Source of the DNA: a virus
Reading direction: 5' to 3' (one strand)
IMG/VR virus record: IMGVR_UViG_3300046170_000118
Coordinates: 1-34,806 of that record
DNA length: 34,806 bases
Shown here: piece after piece, positions 24,658 to 27,416 of the stretch
How the letters are laid out: every line of letters begins with the position of its first letter
Numbering within the stretch: the first letter of the stretch is position 1
Made by a program: the position numbers and the translations under genes
Notes under the pieces: generated by a model
What the model was told of the DNA's origin: nothing
Databases searched by the model: none
Seen by the model: only the letters and a program-made list of their open reading frames with translations

Positions 24658-25164
24658 CTATGAGATGATAGGCATCTCAACCCTATCAGGTATGTTGTTA
24701 GCTGACAAGTATTCTAAATACGGCTGTAAGTGTGCCTCTGAGATCAGACCCATCTCTACCATCTTGTCTGCCAGCTTACCGCGTATATACATCTCGCCTA
24801 CTGGTTCGCCTGCGATGATCCGCTTGGCATTTAGCTGTAGCGTGTCTGGCTTCCACGGGCCGCTGCTTACTGTGCGTGTGGATGCAGATGACATAGACTT
24901 AGAAACCGCCGCGCTGATTTCTGCTGATGTAGGCCAAGAGCGAGACTTATGTGCTTCTTTAAGTTTCAGCATTGCGCGATCCATTGTGCCGCGAATGTGA
25001 TCCTCATTTGTATCGGTAGGGAACTTCTGGTTAATCAGGCGACAGATACCCTCTACCTCTGCCTGCGCACGTTTCTCATCTTCTAAATGCTTTGGAATAG
25101 CGTAAGTGCCAAGGATGTTCATAAGCTCATTACGGATTAGCTGCATTCTCATGTCATAGTTCAT
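24658..25164 (-). CDS. Possible replication loader or accessory protein
   Basis: A 168-aa helical protein (MNYDMRMQLIRNELMNILGT). The central LKEAHKSRSWPTSAEISAAV segment recalls the W-x-P-T-x-A-E-x-x-x-A pattern in phage/prophage replication-associated proteins that follow an initiator gene. It sits last in the replication operon, two genes after the HTH initiator, where lambda-like phages place the helicase loader. Its start overlaps the preceding stop. No AAA+ motif is present, so it would be a lambda P type rather than a DnaC type. This is an inference. Confidence 0.5.
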   Translation of the reverse strand: MNYDMRMQLIRNELMNILGTYAIPKHLEDEKRAQAEVEGICRLINQKFPTDTNEDHIRGTMDRAMLKLKEAHKSRSWPTSAEISAAVSKSMSSASTRTVSSGPWKPDTLQLNAKRIIAGEPVGEMYIRGKLADKMVEMGLISEAHLQPYLEYLSANNIPDRVEMPIIS

Positions 25165-25603
25165 AAATCATGTATCCTTCTTTGTCTAAACGATAGCCTT
25201 GCTCTGCCCATTTTTCAGTAGCTATATCATCCGCGATGTAATCCTCTATTTCTTGTATCAAAGTAATCATCGCATGATTTTTCATTTCATGTCTAAAATC
25301 TTCTCTGACCTCTTTATCAGAGTGATCTATGTTATAAAACGTGTCTACTTTTTCCTTTGCCTCTATGATATTAAACCAGCAAATTTCGTCACCTAATCTC
25401 ATACAATCAAGCAAGTGACCTAAACACGCCTCTTTAGTGTGATGTATCATTGCATTGTCATAGAAATCTAGATTGTCGCTGTCCTCTATTTTTGTTGTAT
25501 AAATCAACACCCAATGACCAAAACCTTCATGCGGTGCAATTGATCTCTTTATCGCATATCTCTGCTTTTGTAATTTTCTAAGATTTTCATATTTATCTTT
25601 CAT
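25154..25603 (-). CDS. Hypothetical acidic protein
   Basis: 149 aa from the ATG at 25603, which has a GAGG site nine bases upstream; upstream in-frame starts lie inside the previous gene. It reads MKDKYENLRKLQKQRYAIKR and is rich in Asp, Glu, Tyr and His (DNLDFYDNAMIHHTKEACLG). It lies between the initiator and the putative loader and overlaps the loader start. I do not recognise it. Base composition is more A/T-rich than in its neighbours. Confidence 0.7.
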   Translation of the reverse strand: MKDKYENLRKLQKQRYAIKRSIAPHEGFGHWVLIYTTKIEDSDNLDFYDNAMIHHTKEACLGHLLDCMRLGDEICWFNIIEAKEKVDTFYNIDHSDKEVREDFRHEMKNHAMITLIQEIEDYIADDIATEKWAEQGYRLDKEGYMIYEL

Positions 25604-25607
25604 AGAA

Positions 25608-26261
25608 TTATACCTCATCTGCCCAGCGCTCACCGTTTAGCCAAGTAGCTAAGTGAGGCATGTACTGTTTGTCTTTACCGTCTAGTGTTGAAACGTATGC
25701 TTCCAGTTTAGGCAATAGATCAAAGAAGTCTATCTTCTTGGAAGCTGTTACATATGCTTTTCTAGCCTGACCTTTCCCTACCTTGCGTGGGTACATTTCC
25801 CATAATTGGTCAAAGTAATAATTCACCTCATCATCCTTTGATGATGTATATGGTTCTTTGGATGGTTCTATGGATGGTTTGGGTGAACGTGGTTCAGGGG
25901 TAGGGGTGAATGTCATGCAGGGGTAGGGGTGAACGTTATTCAGGGGTGCATGTTGTTCAGTAGCTTCCCGTGTAGACCCAAGGCTTCCCACAACGTCTAC
26001 ATTGATCGTGTAATCTACCGTGTAGCCTGTTTTGCATTGACGTTGCCCTGCTTCTACTAAAACACCCATCGCAATCATGTCTTTAATGTGGATACGAACA
26101 GCACGATCAGTCATTTCTAAATCAGCAGCCATGTTTTTCTTGCTGACCCAGATACCCGATCCATCGTCACTGGCCTTATCAGCCATATACATTAAAATGG
26201 CTTTCTTTGTCAGAGAACCAATCTTTTTTGTTTGTACTAAATTAGATATTTTGTTACTCAT
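25608..26261 (-). CDS. Replication initiator with N-terminal winged HTH
   Basis: 217 aa. Residues 15-80 form a winged helix-turn-helix (KKAILMYMADKASDDGSGIW, then SKKNMAADLEMTDRAVRIHI). Residues about 100-145 are a Pro-rich linker, and the DNA coding it carries four iterons. Residues 150-217 (FDQLWEMYPRKVGKGQARKA ... MPHLATWLNGERWADE) are the common C-terminal domain of phage and prophage replisome organisers. By analogy with lambda O it would bind the iterons and recruit the loader and host helicase. The start has an AGAGG site. Confidence 0.8.
   Translation of the reverse strand: MSNKISNLVQTKKIGSLTKKAILMYMADKASDDGSGIWVSKKNMAADLEMTDRAVRIHIKDMIAMGVLVEAGQRQCKTGYTVDYTINVDVVGSLGSTREATEQHAPLNNVHPYPCMTFTPTPEPRSPKPSIEPSKEPYTSSKDDEVNYYFDQLWEMYPRKVGKGQARKAYVTASKKIDFFDLLPKLEAYVSTLDGKDKQYMPHLATWLNGERWADEV
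25884..25959. repeat. Four iterons inside the initiator gene: candidate replication origin
   Basis: Four 13-bp imperfect palindromes of the form TGAA-N5-TTCA lie in a row: TGAACGTGGTTCA (25884-25896), TGAATGTCATGCA (25907-25919), TGAACGTTATTCA (25930-25942) and TGCATGTTGTTCA (25947-25959). They are separated by GGGGTAGGGG, GGGGTAGGGG and GGGG, giving steps of 23, 23 and 17 bp. The steps are not multiples of three and the encoded linker is not repeated, so selection acts on the DNA. This parallels the four iterons of the lambda origin inside gene O. Confidence 0.65.
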
Positions 26262-26289
26262 TGTATGAGCCTCTCTTTGTTGGGTTCAT

Positions 26290-26306
26290 TGAAAGAACTC
26301 CTTTCA
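26290..26306. promoter_or_regulatory. Palindrome upstream of the initiator gene
   Basis: TGAAAG-AACTC-CTTTCA, perfect 6-bp arms around 5 bases, lies 29 bases before the initiator start codon. It could be an operator for the HTH protein encoded next door or a mRNA hairpin near the ribosome site. Its outer TGAA/TTCA ends match the iteron half-sites, so binding by the initiator itself is also possible. Confidence 0.4.
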
Positions 26307-26320
26307 CTTGTTATCGGTTG

Positions 26321-26351
26321 AAGACCCGTTGCTCTGTCAGGCGCGGGTCTT
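26321..26351. terminator. Hairpin between the HTH gene and the initiator gene
   Basis: AAGACCCG pairs perfectly with CGGGTCTT around a 15-base loop. On the plus strand it is followed by TTCC; on the minus strand the T run is lacking. As both flanking genes read leftward, it may partly terminate or attenuate transcription from the HTH gene into the initiator gene. Confidence 0.4.
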
Positions 26352-26626: not shown

Positions 26627-26812
26627 ATGCATAAACATCCAACACCTGTCAGCATTAAAGCTGAAATATATAAGGCGCTATGTAAGGCGGCTGCAAAACA
26701 CAGCTTGCTTTCAAGCGATGTAACGATAGCATTGCAGGCTATTGATGAAGGTATCGCGGAAGCAAACAAGAACCACGACGAATTTAGAAAGGCCATGGGA
26801 TATGACCAATAA
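26627..26812 (+). CDS. First early-operon protein, small
   Basis: 61 aa with a GAGG site seven bases before the ATG: MHKHPTPVSIKAEIYKALCK, then AAAKHSLLSSDVTIALQAID. The pattern (VSIKAEIYKALCKAAAKHSLLSSDVTIAL) looks like a ribbon-helix-helix or short helical DNA-binding protein, but I cannot assign a family. As the first gene of the early operon it could be a regulator. It overlaps the next gene start by 11 bases. Confidence 0.65.
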   Translation: MHKHPTPVSIKAEIYKALCKAAAKHSLLSSDVTIALQAIDEGIAEANKNHDEFRKAMGYDQ

Positions 26813-27416
26813 GTTTCAGACAGCAATGGATTTTGTTGCAGACCTCAACAAGTCACATGGGGTCATGCAGCGCGGTGGTAAGCAGTACACAGAGGTAGCA
26901 AAGCGTGTAGAAGCGTTCCGCACTGTGTTTGGCGGTGAATACGGTATTGATACTGACATCATCCACAATGACGGTCAGACAGTAGTGGTAAAAGCTACAG
27001 TCAAAGACAAAGACGGTTTTATTGTTGGATCGGGCTTGGCAGAAGAAATCCGTGGATCGTCGCACATTACAAAGACATCTGCTGTAGAGGTATGTGAGAC
27101 ATCAGCTATTGGACGCGCACTTGCTTCTATGGGTATGCACGGCGGTCAGTATGCATCTGCGAATGAGATGGAAGGTGTAAAGCGTAAAGAGCAAGCGATC
27201 AAAGCATCAGACGCTGCACCAAAGCCATCAATGGAACTAGACCTTGCCGCGCGTGTAGACGCTGCACTGACGTTCTATGAGAACTGCGATGCCAAGCGCT
27301 TTGCTAGTAATGAGAACCGCTATAAAAAACTAATCAACAGCCCTGACCTGTCAGAGCCACAATATGAACAGCTTGTAGAAGCACATGATAAACGTAAAAC
27401 GGAGCTAATGGTATGA
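26802..27416 (+). CDS. Probable phage recombination / ssDNA-annealing associated protein
   Basis: 204 aa from the ATG at 26802 (an upstream in-frame start at 26742 lies inside the previous gene). It begins MTNKFQTAMDFVADLNKSHG. The segment EEIRGSSHITKTSAVEVCET, then SAIGRALASMGMHGGQYASA, is a hallmark of proteins encoded just before phage SSB genes, generally taken as Rad52/Erf-like or SSB-associated recombination factors. The gene overlaps the SSB start (ATGAAAG within its stop). Exact family membership was not tested. Confidence 0.6.
   Translation: MTNKFQTAMDFVADLNKSHGVMQRGGKQYTEVAKRVEAFRTVFGGEYGIDTDIIHNDGQTVVVKATVKDKDGFIVGSGLAEEIRGSSHITKTSAVEVCETSAIGRALASMGMHGGQYASANEMEGVKRKEQAIKASDAAPKPSMELDLAARVDAALTFYENCDAKRFASNENRYKKLINSPDLSEPQYEQLVEAHDKRKTELMV

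Follow-up and report, generated by a model that had tools for sequence, protein, structure and literature searches.

We propose that the virus record analyzed here very probably carries a phage replication origin on the lambda plan, lying within the gene for its own initiator. The record, a 34.8-kb stretch of DNA that we refer to as the window, has an array of palindromic iterons within this gene, and most relatives whose DNA-binding domain is of another type have palindromic arrays of other sequence at the corresponding place. A lambda-style origin inside the initiator gene was the core of the original prediction, and this reading is strengthened both by the arrays found at the same place in relatives and by a scan of lambda, which gives the same geometry. 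The array is conserved at the DNA level, iterons and DNA-binding domain have been exchanged together, and a second element, made of AACC repeats, lies past the iterons.

The Initiator Gene

The window carries podovirus-like genes, and the portal protein shares 48% identity with that of Octadecabacter Antarctic DB virus 2, a likeness that hints at an alphaproteobacterial host; a genome search for the host returned 17 pattern matches and 0 relatives. The replication initiator gene (25608..26261, minus strand) encodes 217 amino acids that comprise an N-terminal winged helix-turn-helix (HTH), a disordered linker, and a helical C-terminal domain. The protein has a full-length profile match (residues 3-216, E 2.3e-29) to phrog_270, annotated as "replication initiation protein." O-like families match its N-terminal part, and a match to the primosomal family phrog_9327 marks its C-terminal domain as replication-type. 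Pfam HTH_36 matches the DNA-binding domain with E 2e-4, under the curated cut-off, and a PDB fold search with the initiator found only generic winged helices, none with E below 1e-3, the nearest solved folds being transcription regulators.

AlphaFold modelling with 38 relatives places the winged HTH at residues 17-86 with the recognition helix at 52-65, followed by a low-confidence, Pro/Thr/Ser-rich stretch (residues 94-141) that is predicted to be disordered and by the helical C-terminal domain (residues 143-217). On the minus strand of the window, the part coding for the DNA-binding domain (residues 1-93) spans 25983..26261 and the part coding for the C-terminal domain (residues 142-217) spans 25608..25838. 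The latter domain, of the type YPRKxGKxxA...TWLNxERW, is nearly unchanged across the exchanges described below.

The Iteron Array and Its Conservation

Iteron 1 (TGAACGTGGTTCA, 25884..25896) and iteron 3 (TGAACGTTATTCA, 25930..25942) are the sole two exact TGAA-N5-TTCA matches in the window, and iteron 2 (TGAATGTCATGCA, 25907..25919) and iteron 4 (TGCATGTTGTTCA, 25947..25959) each have one half-site TGCA. The four 13-bp sites originally claimed are thus present, but the TGAA-N5-TTCA form is exact in two of them only. Likewise, the claimed spacer GGGGTAGGGG occurs as spacers 1 and 2 (25897..25906 on the plus strand, again at 25920-25929), whereas spacer 3 is GGGG (25943-25946). The steps of 23, 23, and 17 bp were correctly described and do break the codon frame, the four iterons occupying all three frames, and the predicted disorder of residues 94-141 confirms the assignment of the site to the linker-coding part of an HTH initiator gene. 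Among periods of 10 to 60 bp, the 23-bp self-similarity at the array is the strongest in the window.

We scanned genes for sets of three palindromes, each having 5-bp arms around a 5-bp centre, and compared the scores with those of dinucleotide shuffles of the gene. The window initiator gene scores z 8.7-9.1. With lambda O, the positive control, the scan gives z 5-6 and recovers the annotated iterons CCCTC-AAAAC-GAGGG with their 20/24-bp steps. The scan found no iterons in gp49 of Octadecabacter DB virus 2 or gp15 of Azospirillum Cd, which share the initiator-type C-terminal domain with the window and have a different N-terminal domain.

Comparison with related phages was proposed at the outset as a check, and absence of the repeats from close relatives would have counted against the origin; instead, nearly all close relatives keep the array, and keep it in place. 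Among 62 relatives in IMG/VR, those with the window-type DNA-binding domain have, at this place, either four iterons (17/23/23) or three (23/23), the three-iteron relatives lacking iteron 4. Third codon positions within the arms are 100% identical in the four-iteron set versus 62% elsewhere (p 6e-5), and 89% versus 67% in the three-iteron set (p 0.014). Unlike the arms, the 5-bp centres drift in window-type genes. In the diverged relative L059, the 17/23/23 layout is retained and the sites read (T/C)GCA-N5-TGCA.

Relatives with other N-terminal domains, gathered by a search with the C-terminal domain, mostly have three palindromic iterons in the linker, 22-23 bp apart and again with 5-bp arms and centre. 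Their half-sites fall into about a dozen types: GCGCA, GTYGC, GTTCG, (A/T)GGAA, TGGCA, CTGCA, TGTAA, ATCCA, ATGTA, GTCTC, and CTACA. Across 18 type representatives and lambda, with half-sites registered by hand, the arms pair at 78% of positions, compared with 37% (maximum 56%) after the right arms are redistributed among types. In the palindrome scan, the cassettes of L070/L092, L081/L088, and L100 were not clearly above shuffles, and that of L028 was degenerate. L081, L088, and L100 join a related C-terminal domain to an N-terminal domain of the type AVLYQNxxFWTEKN, and AACC-like KPD repeats remain in them. Additional iteron copies are seen in phage cdtI (L156:901-1785), where a block is duplicated, and in L132 (1563-2231), where the extra copy forms a fourth palindrome, suggesting that arrays may grow by tandem duplication.

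A Second Repeat Element Past the Iterons

Three AACC repeats 12 bp apart lie on the coding strand next to the array (25852..25879, minus strand; copies at 25879-25876, 25867-25864, and 25855-25852). Nearly all types have this element on the C-terminal side, mostly in two or three copies with 12- to 15-bp steps, and among the 18 type representatives AACC reaches 43.9 per kb directly past the iterons versus 2.3 per kb elsewhere. The repeats are read in codon frames 0, 1, and 2, yielding KPxxEP in some proteins and NNLxxNNL in others. The AACC stretch of the window, at 60% AT, hardly exceeds the gene (57%), which weighs somewhat against the origin reading; values are mostly 63-75% in other types and 68% in lambda.

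The element is also found in gammaproteobacterial phages, namely those of Vibrio, Klebsiella, Aeromonas, and E. coli (41.9 versus 4.4 per kb elsewhere), which have related winged helices and different C-terminal domains; a link between AACC and the C-terminal domain was therefore rejected. Lambda has no AACC element. A set of phages found through the Vibrio C-terminal domain (L244-L252) has lambda-type N-terminal domains and ACAAAAGA repeats rather than AACC. Taken together, these distributions indicate that AACC goes with the N-terminal family of the initiator. We consider the element a candidate for unwinding or strand recognition. In the open-licence papers searched we found no description of such repeats, and a scan of IMG/VR with mEp460 returned near-identical copies only. 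The iterons of L244-L252 vary (TACCC-N5-AGGTA, TCACC-N5-GGTGA, TAGCT-N5-AGCTA) and are directly followed by near-constant ACAAAAGA-type repeats, in parallel to the AACC element.

Alternative Explanations for the Repeats

The repeats could be operator sites through which the initiator controls its own transcription, rather than an origin. Winged-HTH proteins often bind palindromes, and the regulators among the nearest solved folds would fit such a role. Nevertheless, we find this improbable: the sites lie some 300 bp inside the gene rather than at a promoter, the phrog_9327-type C-terminal domain belongs to replication, the geometry and place are those of the proven iterons of lambda, and a second repeat element adjoins the iterons in nearly every type.

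Runs of at least four G or C occur at 27.2 per kb in the iteron arrays versus 2.0 per kb elsewhere in the genes, an enrichment that favors G-rich spacers acting as G-quadruplex-like structures. The original prediction had envisaged structures formed by G runs on one strand, and this is not supported by the comparison of types. C runs lie on the coding strand in types W, B, C, and F, G runs in A and K, and both in E, I, and J, whereas types G, H, and N have no such runs between iterons. A functional element of this kind is therefore very improbable, and a property of the duplex such as curvature would fit better. Most types have A-rich iteron centres, whose alternation with G/C-rich stretches about half a step away may curve the DNA; the lambda iterons are bent (PMC7466680, PMC5043065).

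Finally, the view that the repetition reflects a repeated protein sequence or a low-complexity linker, the DNA having no role, can be dismissed, as was argued from the start, for although the linker is predicted to be disordered and is rich in Pro/Thr/Ser, the 23/23/17-bp steps shift the frame, third codon positions are held fixed in the arms while the centres drift, and the palindromic pairing extends across types.

Exchange of a Domain-Iteron Cassette

The start region, the DNA-binding domain, the iterons, and most of the AACC element form a swappable cassette (25850..26296) whose edges in blastn comparisons lie, depending on the relative, at 25849-25855 and 26291-26321. Seven relatives (L048, L050, L051, L053, L054, L060, and L063) have zero blastn similarity to the window within the cassette, and their flanks are mostly 88-97% identical to it (80% upstream of L051 and 83% downstream of L050). 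Phages whose DNA-binding domain differs still share 95-100% identity in the C-terminal domain. Thus, near-isogenic phages have exchanged only about 450 bp, and each new domain comes with new palindromic iterons. At least five alternative cassettes occupy this one locus besides that of the window; since they sit between near-identical flanks, the iterons track the DNA-binding domain rather than the C-terminal domain. Such co-exchange is what cognate recognition would predict. Because the recognition domain and its sites are contiguous, a single recombination of about 450 bp would swap both and keep them matched.

We compared half-sites with protein segments across 14 types. Half-site distance is correlated with distance in residues 49-62 (Mantel r 0.36, p 0.002), whereas segments outside the recognition helix show no such correlation. 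When only one of the three related GTYGC types is kept, r drops to 0.19 (p 0.12), so that co-variation of half-sites with the recognition helix, and hence a recognition code, is only suggestive.

Next to genes for SSB and NinB, the window encodes a 224-aa protein (26742-27416) of phrog_11717, a family of unknown function. It has a TSAIGRALASMG motif that we take to recall ERF/Rad52-type annealing proteins, and profile searches gave no hit to such proteins; a recombinase of this kind could mediate the exchange of cassettes. In L063 (3958-4549), a frameshift appears to affect both the C-terminal domain of the initiator and the 168-aa gene after it, owing to either assembly error or decay.

A Model for Initiation

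We model the mechanism on the precedent of lambda, whose O protein binds inverted-repeat iterons as dimers (PMC5043065). A dimer of winged-helix domains would sit on each palindromic iteron, the two 5-bp arms being one helical turn apart, and three to four such dimers spaced 22-23 bp apart would wrap or bend the array into an O-some. The strain would pass into the neighboring stretch of AACC repeats, towards the C-terminal domain, and open it. The conserved C-terminal domain, probably together with the small protein encoded downstream, would then recruit the host replicative helicase.

A more far-reaching hypothesis, which we regard as possible though rather doubtful, is that the origin is an exchangeable specificity cassette on a common chassis, with exchange driven by escape from origin-directed interference or from competition. 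The C-terminal domain and downstream genes would be the chassis, accepting recognition helices and iterons in many matched combinations. The constant AACC element, which goes with the winged-helix family and not with the C-terminal domain, would be recognized in sequence during strand opening, much like the DnaA-trio, an element of bacterial origins.

Comparison with Known Origins

Although the lambda origin is textbook material, to our knowledge few iteron specificities have been resolved for origins of its type. The single marine group studied here adds about a dozen matched domain-iteron pairs. As several of these are in near-isogenic phages, specificity is testable by simple exchange, and the conserved AACC element could test whether O-type initiators read the sequence of the opened strand.

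The closest known systems are the origin in gene O of lambda and the O origins of Stx phages (PMC7466680). The lambda origin comprises four iterons, each an inverted repeat with arms and centre of 5 bp, at intervals of 20-24 bp. As in lambda, the window iterons lie mid-gene between the DNA-binding and C-terminal domains, and lambda has its AT-rich side towards the C-terminal half; the 17-bp step of the window departs from the lambda-type spacing. Unlike lambda, the window has a phrog_270 initiator with another C-terminal domain, and AACC repeats where lambda has the ACAAAAGA type. The window initiator matches phrog_270 and not phrog_277, the lambda O family. It has no direct sequence match to lambda O (hhalign probability 1%), the two being linked only indirectly through the shared O-like families phrog_391, 678, 345, and 9773. 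The origin would work like that of lambda, with an initiator that by sequence lies outside the lambda O family. Related winged helices, palindromic iterons 21-24 bp apart, and AACC past the iterons are found with the O-like initiators of mEp460, Klebsiella RAH1, Vibrio 219E41, and Aeromonas AsXd-1, which differ from the window in their C-terminal domains and half-sites.

Lambda, P22, and L have different iterons, and the gene 18 origins of P22 and L have different initiators with their own intragenic repeats, exchanged as a region (PMC8022706). Between P22 and L the entire replication region is different, whereas in the phages studied here a single cassette differs between near-identical flanks. 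In PLE satellites, the DNA-binding domain of RepA and the iterons are exchanged jointly and the C-terminal part stays; cognate specificity has been shown experimentally, and the proposed driver is an origin-cutting nuclease (PMC8263062). By analogy, a similar pressure on the phages studied here is possible. PLE initiators are of the RepA_N type, and their origin lies in a noncoding region, unlike the intragenic array of the window. The iteron plasmid class, with direct repeats outside the rep gene bound by Rep monomers, is ruled out because the window repeats are palindromic and inside the gene.

Downstream Genes and GC Skew

A conserved gene for a 168-aa protein (24658..25164, minus strand) lies one or two genes downstream of nearly all the initiators found. 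This protein, in the role of lambda P, is a weak candidate for a helicase loader: it has a confident helical structural model, and a fold search placed lambda P at rank 14 (E 0.84), with no significant sequence match between the two (hhalign probability 5%). We recognized no helicase gene among the window genes examined. GC skew, an earlier suggestion for locating the origin, changes sign near 26.5 kb, at a point where the genes also reverse their orientation, and reaches its cumulative minimum elsewhere; it is thus confounded by gene orientation and uninformative. Between the initiator and the 168-aa gene, the window has a variable 159-aa gene (25154-25633), which is absent in most near-isogenic relatives and occurs in only eight related loci at about 51% identity.
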